This document shows, piece by piece, positions 4,704 through 15,029 of a stretch of DNA of 64,000 nt. This DNA is from Methanoculleus caldifontis (GTDB lineage Archaea > Halobacteriota > Methanomicrobia > Methanomicrobiales > Methanoculleaceae): contig NZ_WBKO01000001.1 in the NCBI RefSeq assembly GCF_032842345.1, forward strand, positions 1,178,001 to 1,242,000, given 5' to 3'. The position numbers and the translations under genes are program-made. The notes below the pieces were generated by a model that worked only from the letters and a program-made list of their open reading frames with translations, was not told the origin of the DNA and made no database searches. Each line of letters starts with the position of its first letter. Position 1 is the first letter of the stretch.

Positions 4704-5267
4704 ATGAAATCGAGAGATATTGCAATCGTCGGCATACTCCTTGCCGTAGGGGCCATCATCAGGTACATGTCACTCCTGATCCCCGGCCCGATCGTATCGA
4801 ACCTCGTGATCGCCTTCTATAGCCTCGCCATCATCCTGGTCGTGCCCACGTTCCGCGAAGCGATCGGGATCGGCGTTGTGGCGGGCATCATCTGTGCTCT
4901 CCTCAGCCACTCGATCTTCCCGCCCGCAAACCTCATCAGCGAGCCCATCGGGGCGGTCGTCGCCCTCGCGGTCTACCTGGTGATCAGGGAGCGCTTCGCG
5001 CTTGCCCCGGCGGTGACGGTGCTCGTTGCCACCCTCGCGAGCGGGTTCTCCTTCATCCTCATCGCACTCCTCGCGGTGGCCCCGACAGTCCTCGACAAGT
5101 TCGGGACCCTCGAGGCGTTCCTCGCGGTGACCGTGCCGATCGTCCTGATCACGGCGGCGGTCAACGCGGTCGTCGGGCAGGTGCTCATGGTGCCGGCATC
5201 AAGGGCGCTGATGCGGGGCACGCGGCAGGCAGCTCCGCGGGGTGCGGGGAAGGTTGATGAATCTTAA
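4704..5267 (+). CDS. ECF transporter S-component (substrate-binding membrane protein), TrpP-like
   Basis: 187 residues with about six hydrophobic segments and an N-terminal cytoplasmic Lys/Arg patch, the size and topology of ECF S-components. The Gly-rich stretch around residues 50-75 followed by a Pro-x-x-x-Leu-Ile-x-x-Pro segment resembles the TrpP (tryptophan) family as I remember it, but I could not align it. It is the first gene of an S-A-T operon, overlapping the ATPase gene by 11 bases, so a dedicated group I ECF transporter is likely. A TRP-box-like palindrome upstream favours tryptophan or an aromatic substrate; biotin, cobalt or another vitamin cannot be excluded. Confidence 0.7.
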   Translation: MKSRDIAIVGILLAVGAIIRYMSLLIPGPIVSNLVIAFYSLAIILVVPTFREAIGIGVVAGIICALLSHSIFPPANLISEPIGAVVALAVYLVIRERFALAPAVTVLVATLASGFSFILIALLAVAPTVLDKFGTLEAFLAVTVPIVLITAAVNAVVGQVLMVPASRALMRGTRQAAPRGAGKVDES

Positions 5268-6792
5268 GACCGGCGGGGAGAGCGTCCTCTCCCTTCGAGG
5301 CGTCTCCTACACCTACCCCGGTTCCGACTCTCCGGCCTTCGAAGGGGTTAGCCTCGACCTCCGGAGAGGAGAGATCGTCTTCGTCACCGGCCCTACCGGG
5401 GCGGGGAAGACGACCCTCTGCCTTGCCGCGTCCGGCATCCTCCACCACGAGTACGGCGGCACGCTCGAGGGCGCGATCACGATTCTCGGGAAAGACGTCC
5501 GGGATTACCAGAGCATGGCCGGGATCGGGAAGCACGTCGGGGTGGTCTTCGACGACGCCGACGCCCAGCTCATCTTCTCCACCGTCGAGGAGGAGGTGGC
5601 CTCGGGGCTTGAGAATCTCGGAATTCCCCGGGCGGAGATGCAGCAGAGGCTCCGCCACGTGATGGAGTCGACCGGGATCGCCGACCTTGCACAGAGGGCG
5701 CCGCACACCCTCTCCGGGGGCCAGAAACAGCGTGTCGCCATCGCGGCAACCCTTGCCCTGGGCACAGAGATCCTGATCCTCGACGAGCCGACCGCCGAAC
5801 TGGACACGGATGCGACCGACGCGATCTCCGCCCTCCTGCGGCGGCTCGCGGACGAGGGCACGGCCGTGCTCATCGTCGAGCAGAAGTTCGATATGCTTGC
5901 CGCCATCGCGGACCGGATGGTCCTGATCGAGGACGGCAGGATCGTGCAGGAAGGCTCGCCCGACGAGGTGATGGGGAGCGGCTCCGTGCAGTCCCCGTCA
6001 GGCGCCGCCCGGAGGCACCCCGCCCCGGCAGCGGCCCTTCCGGAAGGAGGGGCACCGCCCATCATCTCCATCCGGGGGCTCGTTCACCGCTACGACGGGG
6101 TGACGGCTCTCGCCGGTCTCGACCTTGAGATCGTCCCCGCCGAGATCGTGGCCGTGGTCGGGGAGAACGGGTCCGGGAAGACGACGCTCATCAAACACTT
6201 CAACGGGCTGCTCCGGCCCACCGAAGGCAGCGTCACCGTCGACGGGCTCGATGCGGCGACGGTCCCGATCGCGGAACTCGCGCGCCACGTGGGCCTGGTC
6301 TTCCAGAACCCGGACACCATGCTCTTCGCCGAGACCGTGGAGGAAGAGGTGGCGTTCGGCCTCAGGAACATCGACCCGGAGAGCACGGGGGAGCCGATCG
6401 AGGCAGCCCTTCGCGAGGTCGGCCTCATCCACCGGAAGGCCGTCTACCCGCGGTCGCTCTCACGGGGCGAACGGCAACGCCTGGCCATCGCCTGCGTCAT
6501 CGCGATGAAGCCGGGGGTGATCGTCCTTGACGAGCCCACGACGGGACTCGACGCCCGCGAGGCGGCACGGGTCATGGAGACCCTCGGCCGCCTGCGCCGG
6601 GAAGGCCACACCATCGTCATGGTGACGCACGACATGCGTCTTGGAGAGGAATACGCCGACCGCATCGTCAGGATGGAGCAGGGAAGCATCGTCGGCGACG
6701 AGAGAATATCCGAGGAGGAACCATGCCCGAAATTATGCAGTACGTCATCAGGGAGAGCGCCTTTCACCGCCTCCACCCGATCACCAAACTGA
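5257..6792 (+). CDS. ECF transporter ATPase, fused A-A' double ABC domain
   Basis: 511 residues from ATG 5257 (preceded by GGGGAAGG; a GTG at 5242 is less likely). Two ABC ATPase domains occur in one chain. The first has Walker A GPTGAGKT (about 45-52), LSGGQKQR (about 153) and ILILDEP; the second has GENGSGKT (about 302), a divergent signature SRGERQR (about 401) and VIVLDEP with a following VTHD. The domains are joined by a Pro/Ala-rich linker around 245-270. The chain energises uptake with the S and T components. The last 23 codons overlap ecfT by 70 bases, so the C-terminal tail is probably not conserved. Confidence 0.9.
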   Translation: MNLKTGGESVLSLRGVSYTYPGSDSPAFEGVSLDLRRGEIVFVTGPTGAGKTTLCLAASGILHHEYGGTLEGAITILGKDVRDYQSMAGIGKHVGVVFDDADAQLIFSTVEEEVASGLENLGIPRAEMQQRLRHVMESTGIADLAQRAPHTLSGGQKQRVAIAATLALGTEILILDEPTAELDTDATDAISALLRRLADEGTAVLIVEQKFDMLAAIADRMVLIEDGRIVQEGSPDEVMGSGSVQSPSGAARRHPAPAAALPEGGAPPIISIRGLVHRYDGVTALAGLDLEIVPAEIVAVVGENGSGKTTLIKHFNGLLRPTEGSVTVDGLDAATVPIAELARHVGLVFQNPDTMLFAETVEEEVAFGLRNIDPESTGEPIEAALREVGLIHRKAVYPRSLSRGERQRLAIACVIAMKPGVIVLDEPTTGLDAREAARVMETLGRLRREGHTIVMVTHDMRLGEEYADRIVRMEQGSIVGDERISEEEPCPKLCSTSSGRAPFTASTRSPN

Positions 6793-7508
6793 TCTTTGCC
6801 GTCGTCGTCGTGGCCCTTGCGGTGCTGACGAGCGATACCGCGATGCTCGCGGTCCTTGTCGGAGCGGTGGTGGCCGTAGCGGCGGCTGGGGGGCTCGTCC
6901 GCGATCTCCTCCGCCAGGTGCCCCTGCTCCTCTCGCTTGCGGCAAGCCTGCTCGCCCTCACCGTCCTCACCATCCAGAGCGGGGATATCGTCTTCTACCT
7001 GGTCCCGCTCTCGGTCCCGGTCGTCGGCGGGGCCTTCCCGGTCACGACGGGGGCGATCGACCTTGCGGCAGCGATGTCGCTCCGGTTCGCGGCGATGCTC
7101 TTTGCCTTCCAGCTCTTCGTGATCTCGACCCAGCCGCGCGACCTCGTCCACCTCATGGACCGCCTCCGGATGCCCGTCGATTATACGCTGATGCTCCTGA
7201 TTGCGCTCCGGTTCATCCCGAGCCTGCAGCTCGAAGGGAAACGGATCCACGAGGCGCAGCTCGCCCGCGCCTACAACCCGGGCAAGGGCCTCACGGGCAG
7301 GGTCCGCGGCCTCTTCCCGATCATCATCCCCCTGGTCTCGAACTCGCTCGGAAAAGCCACGGTCCTCGGCCTGACGATCGATCTCCGGGGATACCGCTCC
7401 GGCAGGCGGACGCCCATGCAGGACCGCGTCCTCGGCAGGGGCGATGTTGCCGGGATCTGCTGCATGGGCCTCGTGGTCGCAGGGTATTTGGCCGTGCTGC
7501 TCGTATAA
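6723..7508 (+). CDS. ECF transporter transmembrane T-component
   Basis: 261 residues with several long hydrophobic helices and the two Arg-containing coupling-helix motifs of EcfT: AQLARAYN (near residue 180) and LTIDLRGYR (near 220), which dock into the two ATPase domains. It starts inside the 3' end of the ATPase gene, giving strong translational coupling. Together with 4704-5267 and 5257-6792 it makes a complete ECF importer. Whether it serves other S-components elsewhere in the genome cannot be seen. Confidence 0.9.
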   Translation: MPEIMQYVIRESAFHRLHPITKLIFAVVVVALAVLTSDTAMLAVLVGAVVAVAAAGGLVRDLLRQVPLLLSLAASLLALTVLTIQSGDIVFYLVPLSVPVVGGAFPVTTGAIDLAAAMSLRFAAMLFAFQLFVISTQPRDLVHLMDRLRMPVDYTLMLLIALRFIPSLQLEGKRIHEAQLARAYNPGKGLTGRVRGLFPIIIPLVSNSLGKATVLGLTIDLRGYRSGRRTPMQDRVLGRGDVAGICCMGLVVAGYLAVLLV

Positions 7509-8018: not shown

Positions 8019-8984
8019 ATGGGCAATCTGAATGTTGCCGTGCTGGGACCCGCGGGGTATGCAAAAGACCTCGGGAAGAAGGGCACGGACTCCGATATCA
8101 CGTTCTATAACCTGAAGAAGGGCGAAGATACCGTCACCATCGTCGAGCCTGCGCGGTATCCCGAGCGACTGGCCCCGCTCTTCTATGCCGCGTCGATGGC
8201 GGATGCCGCTCTCCTCGTGGTGGGCGAGATCACCCCGATGCTCGGGGAGTGGGTGCTGATGCTCGACGAGGTGGGAGTGAAGCAGGGCTATATCGTCCTC
8301 CGGAACTACCTGACCCCCGACCAGATCGCGCCGCTTCTGCGGGGAACGGTCCTTGAGCAGTACAGGTTCGTGGAAGAAGACCCGATCGCGCTGCGCGACC
8401 TCCTGCTTTCGGAGGCGCACGCCCGGGCATCCGTCCCCCCCGGCGCCGGAAGCGTCGGCACCATCACCATCGACCACCACTTCAACGTCCGCGGCATCGG
8501 GACGGTCATCCTCGGCGGCGTGGTGCGGGGAGGCATCAAGAAGCACGACGCCATAAAGGTCTATCCGGGCGAGCGGCCGATCGGCCTGAGGTCGATCCAG
8601 AAACATGACGACGATTTCGACTGGGCCGCCGAGGGCGACCGGGTGGGGCTCGCGCTCAAGAACATCGAGTCCGACGACCTCGACCGCGGGTACGTCCTCT
8701 CAAACGATCCCGCGCTCCGGACCGGAAAGACCATCGAAGCGCGGGCGACGCTGGTGAAGTACTGGCCGGCCGCGCTCACGGCGGGGACGGTGCTCCACCT
8801 CGGCCACTGGATGCAGTTCATCCCGGCGAGGGTGGAGGCGGTGCGGGACGACGGGAACTGGCGGCAGCCGACGCTCACGCTTGCGCTCGAAAAAGACCTC
8901 GTCTACCTTCCCGGAGATACGGCGGTGCTCCACTACCTCGAGGGCGGGAAGCTCCGGATCGCCGGCCACATCGAGTTGTCCTGA
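8019..8984 (+). CDS. SelB-like EF-Tu family protein with degenerate GTPase domain
   Basis: 321 residues. The C-terminal two thirds carry EF-Tu/SelB domain II and III features (VGTITIDHHFNVRGIGTVILGGVV, then basic beta-rich blocks). The first 110 residues have the shape of a G domain but no functional P-loop: GPAGYAKDLGKKGT replaces GHVDHGKT, and a clear NKxD is missing. This matches the archaeal SelB-like (SelBL) family, which is widespread in archaea lacking selenocysteine and has lost GTPase motifs; its function is unknown. A T-run terminator follows 40 bases after the stop. The translation-related role is only inferred from homology. Confidence 0.75.
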   Translation: MGNLNVAVLGPAGYAKDLGKKGTDSDITFYNLKKGEDTVTIVEPARYPERLAPLFYAASMADAALLVVGEITPMLGEWVLMLDEVGVKQGYIVLRNYLTPDQIAPLLRGTVLEQYRFVEEDPIALRDLLLSEAHARASVPPGAGSVGTITIDHHFNVRGIGTVILGGVVRGGIKKHDAIKVYPGERPIGLRSIQKHDDDFDWAAEGDRVGLALKNIESDDLDRGYVLSNDPALRTGKTIEARATLVKYWPAALTAGTVLHLGHWMQFIPARVEAVRDDGNWRQPTLTLALEKDLVYLPGDTAVLHYLEGGKLRIAGHIELS

Positions 8985-9416: not shown

Positions 9417-10439
9417 TTAGATGAGTTTGAAGAGCGGGTGGTTCTGGGTCTGAGTCTCAAGACCGAACTCCTTGGCTGCTTCCGCGAGCACAATGTCGGC
9501 GAAAGCGATAGCGGTGGAGGCACCCTCACAGTTCTCGATAGGCCCGTACATGATCAGGTCGGCACCGAGGGTGGCGGCCATGATGTTGCACCCGATGTCG
9601 GGGCTCGACCATGCAGCCTGGCGGATACCCTCAAAGCCACCGAAGTGGTGGTGGGCCATCTGCTCGAGGAGGACGTCCTTGCCCTTGTAGTGGTCGGCGA
9701 GGACGCTCTTTCTCCAGCGCTTGAGCCACGTCCAGGAGACGGTCATGTTGTGGTAGGCACCGCCGGTCGGCAGGCCGTGGATGGCCTTGCAGGCGAGGAT
9801 CTCACGGAACGAGCCGCCGGAACCGAGACCGAGCGGGGTCGCTGCGGTGTCGAGGATCGGGCGGGTGATGCCGCATTCCTCTGCGATGGCCATCATGCTC
9901 TTCTCCTGTCCGGCAACGCCTCCCTGGGTGAGCACCTGCTCACGGCCGCGGACGGACGGGTCGCCGGGGTTGAATGCAAGGACGATAGCGGCGTTGACGT
10001 CGCTCTCTTTCAGTGCCTGCATGTTCTCCGGCGTGATCGAACCGTTGATCGAGTTGTAGATCGCACGGTCGGCCAGACCTACTTCCGTGACGTACTTGCA
10101 GGCGTGCGCGAGTGCGGTAGGTGCCGACGAGTCCATCAGGAACGCGGTCTTGTTGTCGATGCTGTCGAACCAGGTGAAGTAGCTCTCGAACGCCTCGCCG
10201 TATTCCGCGATGATCTGGATGAAGTGGGGAACTCCGGTGATGTCGGAGAGTTCCTGACAGCGGTTCCAGAGCGCCTCTGCCTTCGCCTTGTCAATCTTGC
10301 CTTTGTGGTCATCAAGCACGGTCTCGTGCTTGTTGTAGAAGATCGATGCACCGAGAACCCGCGGATACTCGCCGGGCTGCCCGCCGATCTTGGTACCGTT
10401 GAAGTCGAGTACCGTCTGCTCTTTTTCGAACTTGAACAT
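9417..10439 (-). CDS. mtrH: Tetrahydromethanopterin S-methyltransferase subunit H
   Basis: 340 residues from ATG 10439, which has AAGGAGG about 10 bases upstream; the TTG at 10448 sits too close to that site. MtrH is the peripheral methyl-transfer subunit that moves the methyl group of methyl-H4MPT onto the corrinoid of MtrA. The TIM-barrel style sequence, AILAFNPGD-like strands, and Gly-rich GLGSGGSFREI and DIGCNIMAATLGAD segments are those of the MtrH/dihydropteroate-synthase-like family. It is the last gene of the operon and is followed by a T8 terminator. Confidence 0.97.
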   Translation of the reverse strand: MFKFEKEQTVLDFNGTKIGGQPGEYPRVLGASIFYNKHETVLDDHKGKIDKAKAEALWNRCQELSDITGVPHFIQIIAEYGEAFESYFTWFDSIDNKTAFLMDSSAPTALAHACKYVTEVGLADRAIYNSINGSITPENMQALKESDVNAAIVLAFNPGDPSVRGREQVLTQGGVAGQEKSMMAIAEECGITRPILDTAATPLGLGSGGSFREILACKAIHGLPTGGAYHNMTVSWTWLKRWRKSVLADHYKGKDVLLEQMAHHHFGGFEGIRQAAWSSPDIGCNIMAATLGADLIMYGPIENCEGASTAIAFADIVLAEAAKEFGLETQTQNHPLFKLI

Positions 10440-10454
10440 ATTCGTCAATCCTCC

Positions 10455-11195
10455 TTACAGGAACCCAACTAACTTGGGGAGTAATACCAACAACATCATG
10501 AATACAATCAAACCTGCAACCAGTCCGTATAGGATACCGATATCGCGCCCGATCTTTCTTCCGACGCGCTGGGCTATCTCGGCATCGACGAACTCGATCC
10601 TCGTCTCGATGGCATTGAGCCGCTCCTCGATCTCGAGGAACTGCGGGTTCGCGCCTGCAACGGCAACCCCTGCCGCACCGCCGCCCGCCTCTTTGACTTC
10701 AATAACCATGGCTTCCGCGCCGAACGCACCGGGATCTTTGGCCTTGAGTTCGTTGATCTTGGCCTTGATGGTGCCCATGTCCTCGCTTTCCATGATATTG
10801 ACCATCTCGACCTGGTCCTGGAGGCGCTTGATCGCCTCGTCGGAGAGGTTCTCGATGAACGGAATGGCTCCCTGGGCTCCGACGATCTTACCGCCGGAGA
10901 CACCGCCGGTGTGCAGCGCCATGAAGCTCTGACCGGAGAGGTGCCCTTTCACTTCCGTACCGCAGCAGAGGATGTACCTGATGTTGGGGTTGGAGATGAC
11001 GTTTGCGATGATCTTCTCAAGGCCGAGGTTCTCGGTCTTGCAAGAGCCCGCGATTGCCGCTCCGGCGTCGCAGATGCCCTGCTCGTCGAGGTGGGATCCC
11101 ATGGTGACGACGGCGACGCAGCTCTGCGCATCTCCCGTGTGGAAGTCGCCCTGAACGATCGGCCATCCGCTGGCCGGTGATTTCTTCTCAACCAT
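10455..11195 (-). CDS. MtrA-MtrG fusion (second MtrA corrinoid domain fused to subunit G)
   Basis: 246 residues. Residues 1 to about 172 are an MtrA corrinoid-binding domain differing from the adjacent mtrA product (11412-12137) at only two positions (Phe/Tyr after NPNIR, Arg/Lys in ELKAKD). After an Ala/Gly linker the chain continues with an MtrG sequence: [20 protein letters not shown], then [13 protein letters not shown] and one C-terminal membrane helix. It occupies the usual place of mtrG between mtrF and mtrH, and no separate mtrG exists here. DNA of the two mtrA copies is about 97% alike over some 510 bases with scattered silent differences. Such a fusion would bring a second corrinoid head into the complex; this is inference. 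Confidence 0.9.
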
Positions 11196-11196
11196 G

Positions 11197-11406
11197 TTAG
11201 ATCGCCCCCAGCATGATCGCCGGAACCACGATCAGGAGCATGACTATCGCGAGTCCCACTCCGAACCCGACGATGCCCATGCCCATGATACCCGATTCGA
11301 GTTTGGTCGTGCGGGCAAGGATCTGTGCCTTGTACCGGATGGCGTCCACCATCATGTTGATCGCCGTCATCCGGATGGGGCCTGCCTGTGTGCTTTCTTC
11401 TGCCAT
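11197..11406 (-). CDS. mtrF: Tetrahydromethanopterin S-methyltransferase subunit F
   Basis: 69 residues: a short amphipathic N-terminal half ([20 protein letters not shown]) and one C-terminal transmembrane helix, the standard MtrF layout. MtrF is a small membrane anchor packing beside MtrA in the Na+-pumping Mtr complex. It lies between the two mtrA copies: 5 bases after mtrA and 1 base before the MtrA-MtrG fusion gene. Confidence 0.92.
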
Positions 11407-11411
11407 CTATC

Positions 11412-12137
11412 TCACCCCAGCAGGATAAATCCCAGGATCACGAACGAGACGATCAGGCCGATCATGACGCCTTCGACCTTGCCCGAGTAGACGCCGGCGG
11501 CGAACCTGTTACGGTAGCCGATATCGGTGACCATCCGCTCGATGACCTTCATCCGTGCATGTATCAGTGCAAGTTCACCGGAGAGCGGCTGTACTGCACC
11601 GGTTACTTCTTCTGCACCGGCACCGCCTGCCTCCTTGACCTCGATGACCATGGCTTCCGCGCCGAACGCACCGGGATCTCTGGCCTTGAGTTCGTTGATC
11701 TTGGCCTTGATGGTGCCCATGTCCTCGCTTTCCATGATGTTGACCATCTCGACCTGGTCCTGGAGGCGCTTGATCGCCTCGTCGGAGAGGTTCTCGATGA
11801 ACGGAATGGCTCCCTGGGCTCCGACGATCTTACCGCCGGAGACACCGCCGGTGTGCAGCGCCATGAAGCTCTGACCGGAGAGGTGCCCTTTCACTTCCGT
11901 ACCGCAACAGAGGATGAACCTGATGTTGGGGTTGGAGATGACGTTCGCGATGATCTTCTCAAGGCCGAGGTTCTCGGTCTTGCAGGAGCCGGCGATTGCG
12001 GCTCCGGCATCGCAGATGCCCTGTTCGTCGAGGTGGGAACCCATGGTGACGACGGCGACGCAGCTCTGCGCATCTCCCGTGTGGAAGTCGCCCTGAACAA
12101 TCGGCCATCCGCTGGCCGGTGATTTCTTCTCAACCAT
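11412..12137 (-). CDS. mtrA: Tetrahydromethanopterin S-methyltransferase subunit A
   Basis: 241 residues from ATG 12137, preceded by GAGGTG with 6-base spacing (GTG 12146 is part of that site). It carries the 5-hydroxybenzimidazolyl-cobamide that accepts the methyl group from H4MPT and passes it to CoM, driving Na+ export. The cytosolic corrinoid domain (residues 1-170) has the family segments [12 protein letters not shown] and [13 protein letters not shown]. The last 60 residues contain the [20 protein letters not shown] linker and a membrane helix, the canonical MtrA anchor that the neighbouring fusion protein lacks. Confidence 0.97.
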
Positions 12138-12147
12138 GTTCTTCACC

Positions 12148-12432
12148 TCACAGCAGTCCTAATACGACGACACCGGCAACCAGAAGGCCGATTGCCATGC
12201 CATACCAGAATGCGGTCACGCCTCCGGCGATCTTGAGGACACCCTCCCTGTTCGGGAACGATGCCAGGAAGTTGCCCTCTGCGGAGAGCATGCCGACCAG
12301 GTCGTCGGTGATCTTCTCGAGTTCCGCCACCTGTTCGAGAACAGGGGTGTACGAGATACCGGCGGTGGTGACGAGACCGACTATCGGGTCAGCTACCAGT
12401 CCAAACTCGGGCAGTACCTGAATGTACGCCAT
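12148..12432 (-). CDS. mtrB: Tetrahydromethanopterin S-methyltransferase subunit B
   Basis: 94 residues with a short soluble N-terminus containing [14 protein letters not shown], a Glu/Leu-rich middle and a single C-terminal membrane helix ending VVVLGLL. This is the normal length and arrangement of MtrB, a small single-helix subunit of the Mtr complex. The start directly abuts the mtrC stop and mtrA follows 10 bases downstream. Confidence 0.93.
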
Positions 12433-13284
12433 TTAGGCACCTCCCTTGGGCTCCAGGATCGGCTGGGCGTCGAGCCACGCGTAGGCGTCACGCTTCGAGA
12501 GCGCGATGTACTTCGTGTAGGTGTAGAACCACCCGATGACGGAGACCAGCAGCGCGACGACGCCTGGAAGGAGCCCGATGAACGCGAACGAGATGATCGC
12601 GACGGTGATCATGGAGAGGAATCCGCACTCGGCAGCGAGCGTGAGCGTCCGGTCCTGCTTCTCCCCCGGCCCGAGACAGGCGTTGAAGGAGTGCTGGATG
12701 GCGATGGCGCCGAGCATGAAGATCACGGCGACGATGCTCCCGCCGATGAGGGATGCCTCGTAGGTCTGCACGACGAATCCGAGGATGACGGTCGTGCCGG
12801 TGATCATGCCGAGGAACTCGAACGTCCCGCAGGCCATGGCCGCGAGGCCGAGCACCGTCATGGCGCCGACGATCGCGAGTTCGATCAGCGAGACGACCAT
12901 GACCGGGATGTTCATCCGGACCACGTTGTTTGCCATCAGTCCGGCCACCGCGCCGATGATCGCGGCGATGATGATCGTCGTGATGGGTGCGAAGATGCCG
13001 GTCGTGGCTCCGAAGAGCGCGGCGATGACACCGGACCCGAGCGCGATCATACCCGCCGACGGGACACCGGTACCGAGACCGTAACTGCAGAGGTGCTTGA
13101 TCGTGTCGGTACCCCAGACGAGTGCGGCGACTGCTGCAAGCCCGCCGAAGAACGAGAAGTACAGGGTGCCGGTGATCGTGTTCAGGTATGTCAGGTAGAT
13201 GAGGACGAGCGATCCCACGAGTCCGTAGATCAGGATCTGGTTGTGCGGGATGCCGCCTGCTCCAACTTCAACTTTCACCGACAT
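12433..13284 (-). CDS. mtrC: Tetrahydromethanopterin S-methyltransferase subunit C
   Basis: 283-residue polytopic membrane protein with about six to seven long hydrophobic helices; MtrC together with MtrD and MtrE forms the membrane core through which Na+ is translocated. Segments such as TGVPSAGMIALGSG and the Asn/Met-rich MANNVVRMNIPVM are typical of the family. It directly abuts mtrD (stop-to-start spacing 0) and mtrB. Confidence 0.95.
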   Translation of the reverse strand: MSVKVEVGAGGIPHNQILIYGLVGSLVLIYLTYLNTITGTLYFSFFGGLAAVAALVWGTDTIKHLCSYGLGTGVPSAGMIALGSGVIAALFGATTGIFAPITTIIIAAIIGAVAGLMANNVVRMNIPVMVVSLIELAIVGAMTVLGLAAMACGTFEFLGMITGTTVILGFVVQTYEASLIGGSIVAVIFMLGAIAIQHSFNACLGPGEKQDRTLTLAAECGFLSMITVAIISFAFIGLLPGVVALLVSVIGWFYTYTKYIALSKRDAYAWLDAQPILEPKGGA

Positions 13285-14136
13285 TTAGAATCCCCCTATC
13301 AGTCTGAGAAGCGCGATCGCGAAGATGCCGGTGACGGCGGATGCCGCGGCGGCTGCGATGACTGCTCTCGGGAACCGCTTGAACTTGGGGTCATGCGGGC
13401 CTTCGATCGTACCGGTGATGTTGTATGCGGCAAGCACGGCGTTCACGAGGAACATGCCGACCGCGAAGATACCGGCAAGCGAGACGGCGACGGGCGCGAT
13501 CTGCTCGACCGTTGTGTTGAGGATGATCGGCAGCTGTGCCTGGTAGATGTCGAGGAGCTCGAGATAGATGAGCGTTCCGCCGAGACCACCGAGCGCGCCA
13601 CCGATGACACCGCCGACCCAGGAGATGAACGGGAGGCCGTGCCCCTCGGTACCCTGGCTCTTGTACTCGGGGAAGGTGTCGCCCGTGATCGGGTCCTTTG
13701 CGACCTTACCGGATGCTGCCGGGATACCCATACCGAAGATGTAGATGACGTTGACCATCGTACAGGTGATCGCCATCAAGAGACCGCCACCGACGGCACC
13801 GCCGGCGAGGGCGACAGCGAGCCCGAACGGCGCGGCCCACGCACCGCCGAAGAGCCCGGCAAGGCCGGCACCGGCGGCAAGCATCGCGACACCGGTCGCG
13901 ATACCGGGCGCTTGTCCCATTGCGGCAGGAGCACCGCCGACCGGGACGAAGTGAACGCCGAAGGCGATCAGGACGCCGCCGATGATGATGCCGATGACGG
14001 CAAGCACGCCGGCCATCTGCACGAGGTAGAAGGCGAGCGCAAGCGCGACGACGATAAGAACGATACTGACGACGAGGCCCATCCCCGTCGGGGGCTGGAC
14101 GCCTACAGTCTGTTTGGGTCCACCAAGTGCGCTCAT
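13285..14136 (-). CDS. mtrD: Tetrahydromethanopterin S-methyltransferase subunit D
   Basis: 283 residues, strongly hydrophobic with Gly/Ala-rich membrane helices and the segment VGGVIGGALGGLGGTLIYLELLDIYQ near the middle (shown in part). MtrD is a core integral subunit of the sodium-translocating methyltransferase. The ATG overlaps the mtrE stop by 4 bases. Confidence 0.95.
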   Translation of the reverse strand: MSALGGPKQTVGVQPPTGMGLVVSIVLIVVALALAFYLVQMAGVLAVIGIIIGGVLIAFGVHFVPVGGAPAAMGQAPGIATGVAMLAAGAGLAGLFGGAWAAPFGLAVALAGGAVGGGLLMAITCTMVNVIYIFGMGIPAASGKVAKDPITGDTFPEYKSQGTEGHGLPFISWVGGVIGGALGGLGGTLIYLELLDIYQAQLPIILNTTVEQIAPVAVSLAGIFAVGMFLVNAVLAAYNITGTIEGPHDPKFKRFPRAVIAAAAASAVTGIFAIALLRLIGGF

Positions 14137-15029
14137 GAAGATGCCTCCTCGGGGGCCGTGTAGGGTCCGAAGTTCTTCCTTGCCCAGACCTCAATGTAGC
14201 GGTCGATGATGGCAAAGATCAGGATGACAATGACACCGACAATGACCGGTCCCCAGACGTTGAGCTCTTCGAAGACCACGGTACGCCAGAGTTCGAAGAA
14301 TACGATCAGGCCGAAACAGACACCAGACGCGGGGCCGCCGAGTTTGGCGCTGAAGAAACCATTGTCGAGAGAGTTCCGCTGGCCGGCTTCGGCGTAGCGA
14401 ACAATGTTACCGGACGCGGAGATCGGAACGCCTGCTCCGAACTTCTGCTCCTGGTACTGCCGCTCCTTTCCGTAGAACGGGTTACCGGTTGCAGACCCGG
14501 CTGCACCGAGCGCGATACCCCAGACGAGACCCAGGAGCGGGAGCGGGAAGGGGTGACCGAGCGCGCCGATCATCAGGTGACACATCGCGACGGTGGTGAA
14601 GATCGCCACGAACGCGTGTGCCATGGTCACGGTCGTCATCGACTTTAAGATATCGATATAGACCGGCTGTCCAAACTTAGCGAGACTTGCAGTACGGCCA
14701 AGGTATGCGGTTGTCGCATAGACGCCCTGCACGAAGACCGCGAGAGCGCTACCGAGTACGATTGCAAGTATCGGATTTATCTGCATCGCCATGAATGCCC
14801 AGGCAAGGCCTGCACCCAGAGCAACCCAGAGGCCGTACGCGGGGGGTTCACCGGCAACTGCCTTGTTGAAGATGCGGTGAATATATCCCATCTGCGGAGC
14901 GAGCTGAACCTGTGAGTTCGGGTCACCCTGTGATCCGATATCAGATTCAACGTCTTCCGCAGCGCCGGCTACGGTTGCAAGAGCACCTGCCAATGCGGTA
15001 ATGCCGATGCCAAATACGATCTCTTCCAT
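14133..15029 (-). CDS. mtrE: Tetrahydromethanopterin S-methyltransferase subunit E
   Basis: 298 residues, first gene of the mtr operon. It has six or so membrane helices, an acidic N-terminal loop (DVESDIGSQGDPNSQ) and the conserved cytoplasmic loop GNPFYGKERQYQEQKFGAGVP (shown in part), all typical for MtrE. A perfect GGAGGAGG Shine-Dalgarno stands 7 bases before the ATG, immediately next to a small hairpin in the leader. Confidence 0.96.
   Translation of the reverse strand: MEEIVFGIGITALAGALATVAGAAEDVESDIGSQGDPNSQVQLAPQMGYIHRIFNKAVAGEPPAYGLWVALGAGLAWAFMAMQINPILAIVLGSALAVFVQGVYATTAYLGRTASLAKFGQPVYIDILKSMTTVTMAHAFVAIFTTVAMCHLMIGALGHPFPLPLLGLVWGIALGAAGSATGNPFYGKERQYQEQKFGAGVPISASGNIVRYAEAGQRNSLDNGFFSAKLGGPASGVCFGLIVFFELWRTVVFEELNVWGPVIVGVIVILIFAIIDRYIEVWARKNFGPYTAPEEASS

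Follow-up and report, generated by a model that had tools for sequence, protein, structure and literature searches.

During methanogenesis, the complex Mtr transfers methyl groups while pumping sodium and thereby conserves energy; its corrinoid subunit MtrA is known in several gene arrangements. The closest to the locus described here was reported by Wang et al. 2015 (PMC4632066), who found a noncanonical operon in Methanomicrobiales in which an intact mtrA (mtrA-1) is accompanied by a fusion gene, mtrA-2b (mtrA-G), located between mtrF and mtrH. A counterpart, mtrA-2a (mtrA-F), was described in Methanococcales and Methanocella (PMC4632066); it likewise places a second MtrA head, homogenised with mtrA-1, on a stalk helix, but the fusion partner is MtrF and the gene lies ahead of mtrG. 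The same study attributed the likeness of the mtrA heads to long-lasting gene conversion (PMC4632066), and mtrA was listed in a 2018 genome-wide survey as one of the few prokaryotic genes that evolve in concert (PMC6053082). The pair is on record as a very long-lived example of concerted evolution. In the EDCB[AF]FGH operon of TACK archaea, Methanoliparia and ANME-1 (PMC9982363), an MtrA head is also carried on an MtrF-type helix, but it is the single operon head and there is no homogenised pair. The canonical Mtr of Methanothermobacter and Methanosarcina (8q3v, 9qtq) has the same parts, and both domains of the fusion described below align to its chains; in contrast to the fusion, MtrA and MtrG are separate chains, with one head per protomer.

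The window analysed here is a stretch of 64,000 nucleotides from Methanoculleus caldifontis (GCF_032842345.1, NZ_WBKO01000001.1, positions 1,178,001 to 1,242,000). It contains a complete operon on the minus strand with the order mtrE-D-C-B-A-F-(A-G)-H, consisting of mtrE (14133..15029; PF04206), mtrD (13285..14136; PF04207), mtrC (12433..13284; PF04211), mtrB (12148..12432; PF05440), the intact mtrA-1 (11412..12137, ATG at 12137), mtrF (11197..11406; PF09472, 66.8 bits), the mtrA-G fusion gene mtrA-2b (10455..11195) and mtrH (9417..10436; PF02007). The departure from the canonical mtrEDCBAFGH order that was pointed out in the initial annotation, for an interval (10455-12137) enclosing mtrA, mtrF and the fusion, was confirmed, including the retention of an intact mtrA before mtrF. 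A promoter scan at the locus with the bacterial consensus found nothing, as expected for an archaeal host.

The intact mtrA encodes 241 amino acids with its own anchor, matching PF04208 with 280 bits and TIGR01111 over its full length with 335 bits. The fusion is a single open reading frame of 246 amino acids, in which residues 4-172 match the MtrA family PF04208 (280.5 bits; profile positions 1-170 of 173) and residues 184-237 match the MtrG family PF04210 (78.8 bits; cut-off 27); it also exceeds the curated cut-offs of TIGR01111 for MtrA (288.1 bits; cut-off 249.15) and TIGR01149 for MtrG (76.0 bits; cut-off 50.65), and its MtrG part aligns to the MtrG chains of 9qtq and 8q3v. It is composed of an MtrA corrinoid head (codons 1-172; 10680..11195), delimited by its identity to the mtrA head, a linker (codons 173-183; 10647..10679), which begins where similarity to mtrA ends and is disordered in the structural model, and the stalk and membrane helix of MtrG (codons 184-246 and stop; 10455..10646; PF04210 positions 10-63). 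The N-terminus of MtrG (profile positions 1-9) is missing and the linker stands in its place, the MtrG match beginning at position 10; MtrG matches outside the order begin at positions 1-6. The head of mtrA-1 (codons 1-172; 11622..12137) and that of the fusion form a pair of repeats with a spacing of 942 bp, between which mtrF is located. Within residues 1-172 they differ only by F74Y and R153K, and their DNA identity is 96.7% over 510 nt (17 differences) and 96.5% over the full 516 nt, whereas similarity collapses past codon 172. A junction peptide of 24 residues is found only in the fusion within this genome. Thus, the initial annotation, which had described a full MtrA domain and MtrG in one chain of roughly 26 kDa (25.85 kDa calculated from the sequence) and a difference of two in about 172 residues, was correct in all details checked regarding the duplication and fusion. 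The novelty that it implied did not hold up, since the fusion itself, its operon position and the conversion that links its head with that of mtrA had all been published in 2015 (PMC4632066). With an MtrA head fused to MtrG, located between mtrF and mtrH, and with an intact mtrA-1 present, the open reading frame is a further example of mtrA-2b, sharing its operon position, domain order and near-identical head homogenised with mtrA-1, and its architecture is without any difference from that described by Wang et al. 2015. The larger sample examined here adds species whose mtrA-1 and fusion heads fall into clades of their own, and evidence that selection acts on the second head.

To place the fusion in its order, 135 genomes, one per species, at least 90% complete and including that of the window, were surveyed. 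MtrG is present in 127 of the 135, in exactly one copy each, and lies within an open frame of at least 200 amino acids in 101 of the 127. The remaining 26 genomes with a short MtrG were judged from their fetched loci: in 20 the contig stops inside an in-frame MtrA head, in one (G102) runs of N fall within the head, in one (G082) there is a frame break, and in four the contig stops before a head could be seen. Accordingly, the head and MtrG are joined in frame in 121 of the 127 genomes, with the frame interrupted in two and the contig too short to tell in four. The sharing of the fusion by related Methanomicrobiales, proposed as a check in the initial annotation, was therefore observed in every informative genome, and a free mtrG was found in none of the 127 MtrG-bearing genomes. 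In the M. caldifontis genome itself, two MtrA matches and one MtrG match exceed the cut-offs; a separate mtrG, which the initial annotation had named as a contrary outcome, did not appear above the cut-off, the single other match scoring 15.5 bits versus 27. The members listed for the phylum's other families have unfused MtrG frames of 67-143 amino acids. Near-identical repeats spaced 942 bp apart are a known assembly hazard, but the same junction occurs in the assemblies of 120 other species, several of them closed single contigs, and was published in 2015; a misassembly or a recent strain-specific duplication was therefore rejected, its probability being practically negligible.

The near-identical repeats do leave traces in short-read assemblies, where draft contigs are broken at mtrA. 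For instance, drafts of G035, G054, G085, G099 and others of the order break inside the mtrA repeats, and such breaks can make mtrA or mtrG seem absent or partial in near-complete genomes. In the G102 assembly (locus L059), N runs of unequal length (506-514 and 1234-1270) interrupt the two mtrA heads at matching points, and roughly codons 34-105 are absent from each.

The two heads were compared in 45 genomes with both copies complete (90 heads). Within a genome they are 92.7% identical on average (range 79.5-100), versus orthologue identities between genomes of 74.2% for the mtrA-1 (A1) heads and 74.1% for the A-G heads, reproducing on 45 genomes the figures published from eight (paralogues 92.4%, orthologues 73.7%; PMC4632066). 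In a maximum-likelihood tree of the 90 heads, 36 copy-type changes were counted among the 45 pairs, indicating that the A1 and A-G types are thoroughly mixed. The two heads of the window are sisters (support 100/98) and are separated by a dS of 0.154, versus at least 0.27 to the nearest other species, so that the fused head is closer to its own mtrA-1 than to any other species, as in the homogenisation described for mtrA-2b. In several groups of close species (G013/G014/G017/G022, G019/G020, G066/G067, G072/G073 and G120/G121/G123/G124), however, A1 and A-G cluster apart, which shows that conversion acts only from time to time and may pause for as long as species persist. Such episodes of conversion across the spaced repeats keep the heads alike, ending at the linker, where the anchors differ.

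Such lapses make it possible to test selection that is otherwise hidden by homogenisation. In eleven genomes with a dS of 0.69-1.44 between the heads, dN/dS is 0.056-0.118 (Nei-Gojobori counts, which give only rough dS values once these approach or exceed 1), indicating from sequence divergence that the second head is under its own purifying selection where the heads have far diverged. The cobamide-binding residues of the MtrA crystal structure (Asp17, Lys52, Thr53, Asn55, the GAIPF segment, and the axial His84 with its partner Glu54; PMC4915002) correspond here to D17, K53, T54, N56, GAIPF (109-113), H85 and E55, and are invariant in 90 of 90 heads; the axial histidine H85 and its hydrogen-bonded glutamate E55 are therefore present in both heads of all 45 genomes. 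No alignment column separates the A1 from the A-G heads (90 heads, 45 genomes). Taken together, the low dN/dS, the invariant cobamide residues and the lack of a separating column argue for two heads that are both working and interchangeable, and disfavour a passenger role for the second. This selection result is a small new support on the function of the extra head.

The structural setting is provided by cryo-EM of other species, in which MtrA, MtrB, MtrF and MtrG each supply one long helix to a threefold stalk, whose cytoplasmic end bears the helix N-termini; the MtrA head, on a flexible, disordered linker, shuttles between MtrH and MtrCDE (PMC10998594). In Methanosarcina mazei, three MtrH dimers (six MtrH) were found on a complex with three MtrA (PMC12774963). 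The predicted structure of the fusion (built on an alignment with only 21 close sequences and reaching a mean pLDDT of 75; consistent with this setting, not proof of it) consists of a head, a very-low-confidence linker of about 14 residues and one helix of 62 residues; in the genomes, the linker is in frame and nearly constant in length across the order. Combined with the stalk geometry, the prediction would place the fused head at the stalk end from which the MtrA head also hangs, on a linker of similar length.

The best reading of these sequence data is that each protomer has two corrinoid heads, anchored in different ways, which fits the invariant residues and the purifying selection on both. 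Within the (ABFG)3 stalk of this Na+-pumping methyltransferase, the MtrG helix of the fusion would fill the usual place of MtrG. The N-terminal head of the fusion would be a second working corrinoid carrier beside that of MtrA, giving each trimer six cobamide heads, three borne by the A helix and three by the G helix, which would all pick up methyl groups at MtrH and deliver them to coenzyme M at MtrCDE. This reading as a whole, mtrA-2b with its MtrG helix in the stalk and a second working head, six per trimer, is assigned a probability of about 0.7. We infer that the fusion is expressed as a single chain and loaded with cobamide and that the additional heads bring a kinetic benefit; no direct proteomic evidence for an MtrA-G chain was found in the titles and abstracts returned by a search of open papers. 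Mtr here most likely has six working heads per trimer, which would equal the six MtrH of the Methanosarcina cryo-EM structure, although the idea of six heads serving six MtrH is weakened by the view of the M. mazei authors that MtrA is unlikely to reach the membrane-distal MtrH barrel (PMC12774963). The extra heads could allow both barrels of each MtrH dimer to be served, or could raise the chance of a loaded head at the MtrCDE cavity. It is speculative that a G-borne head reaches the distal barrel, and a division of labour in which G-borne heads serve the distal and A-borne heads the proximal MtrH barrels, which would bring all six MtrH into use and let the Na+ pump run faster, or at lower substrate levels, than an enzyme with three heads, is put forward tentatively and is rather doubtful. 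Against six heads, it can be said that three suffice in most other lineages, and that about the first nine positions of MtrG are lost, which might disturb a short sheet near the MtrH docking site. An order with doubled heads on two stalk helices is a ready comparison for whether head number or access to MtrH limits the pump, the required number of heads and the use of both MtrH barrels being at issue for Mtr.

Other roles for the second head have to be weighed. It might be a passenger inseparable from MtrG, maintained in appearance by conversion from mtrA while only the A-borne head works; homogenisation is strong enough in most genomes to preserve a useless copy, and no column distinguishes the two heads. 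Yet dN/dS stays at 0.056-0.118 where dS has reached 0.69-1.44, with all cobamide residues retained, and the head has been shed in none of the 121 genomes, even though gaining a start codon in front of MtrG would be enough; a passenger role is thus unlikely. Less probable again is a role in dosage only, in which post-translational cleavage of the fusion would release free MtrG and a soluble MtrA head, leaving a canonical stalk with loose extra carriers. Soluble, anchorless MtrA relatives do exist (PMC4915002; groups II-IV in PMC4632066) and the linker, being predicted to be disordered, would be accessible, but cleavage sits poorly with an in-frame fusion of near-constant linker length conserved across the order.

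Specialisation of the two heads, for instance by condition or by partner (proximal or distal MtrH), seems just as improbable as cleavage. The separate clades of A1 and A-G heads in several groups of close species would suit it, but no residue separates the head types across the order, and a single operon for both makes differential expression unlikely; the heads might yet be specialised through position alone, not sequence.

Beyond the Methanomicrobiales, the A plus A-F arrangement was found in three of four genomes of family f14; an MtrA head has thus been joined to different stalk helices more than once, as A-G in Methanomicrobiales and as A-F in Methanococcales. Families f10 (member G195 belongs to Methanophagales, ANME-1) and f12 have just one head in the operon, carried by a helix of the MtrF type (L084:2135-3103, L086:2623-3609, L088:1620-2574, L083:1816-2748 and L087:2419-3364). 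The published description of this operon includes "a duplicate mtrF" (PMC9982363). In L084, the free small open reading frame after the fusion matches TIGR01111 positions 182-236 with an E-value of 3.6e-9, versus 1.6e-7 for TIGR02507, and in L086 the values are 7.1e-10 and 1.2e-8, a small margin due to the likeness of the MtrA anchor and MtrF. Judged by these scores, the free frame may be an orphaned MtrA anchor, suggesting relocation of the head rather than duplication of mtrF. Two further variants were observed: G293 has, in addition to a normal mtr operon (L094), a second, divergent mtr-like operon (L093:31-3694, G293:C109) with D, C, B, A, small open reading frames and H, whose MtrA matches PF04208 (E 1.6e-58); and L091 (G163:C212:7124-7650) has tandem MtrG matches in frames of 106 and 67 amino acids beside mtrA and an mtrA-F fusion.

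Adjoining the mtr operon in the window, genes at 4704-7508 encode an ABC protein with a double ATPase together with an ECF membrane protein of the CbiQ type, preceded by an open reading frame for a 187-residue membrane protein that may be the substrate component. Between these genes and mtrH, at 8019-8984 and facing the 3′ end of the mtr operon, lies a gene for a 321-residue protein whose sole Pfam match is to EF-Tu domain 2.
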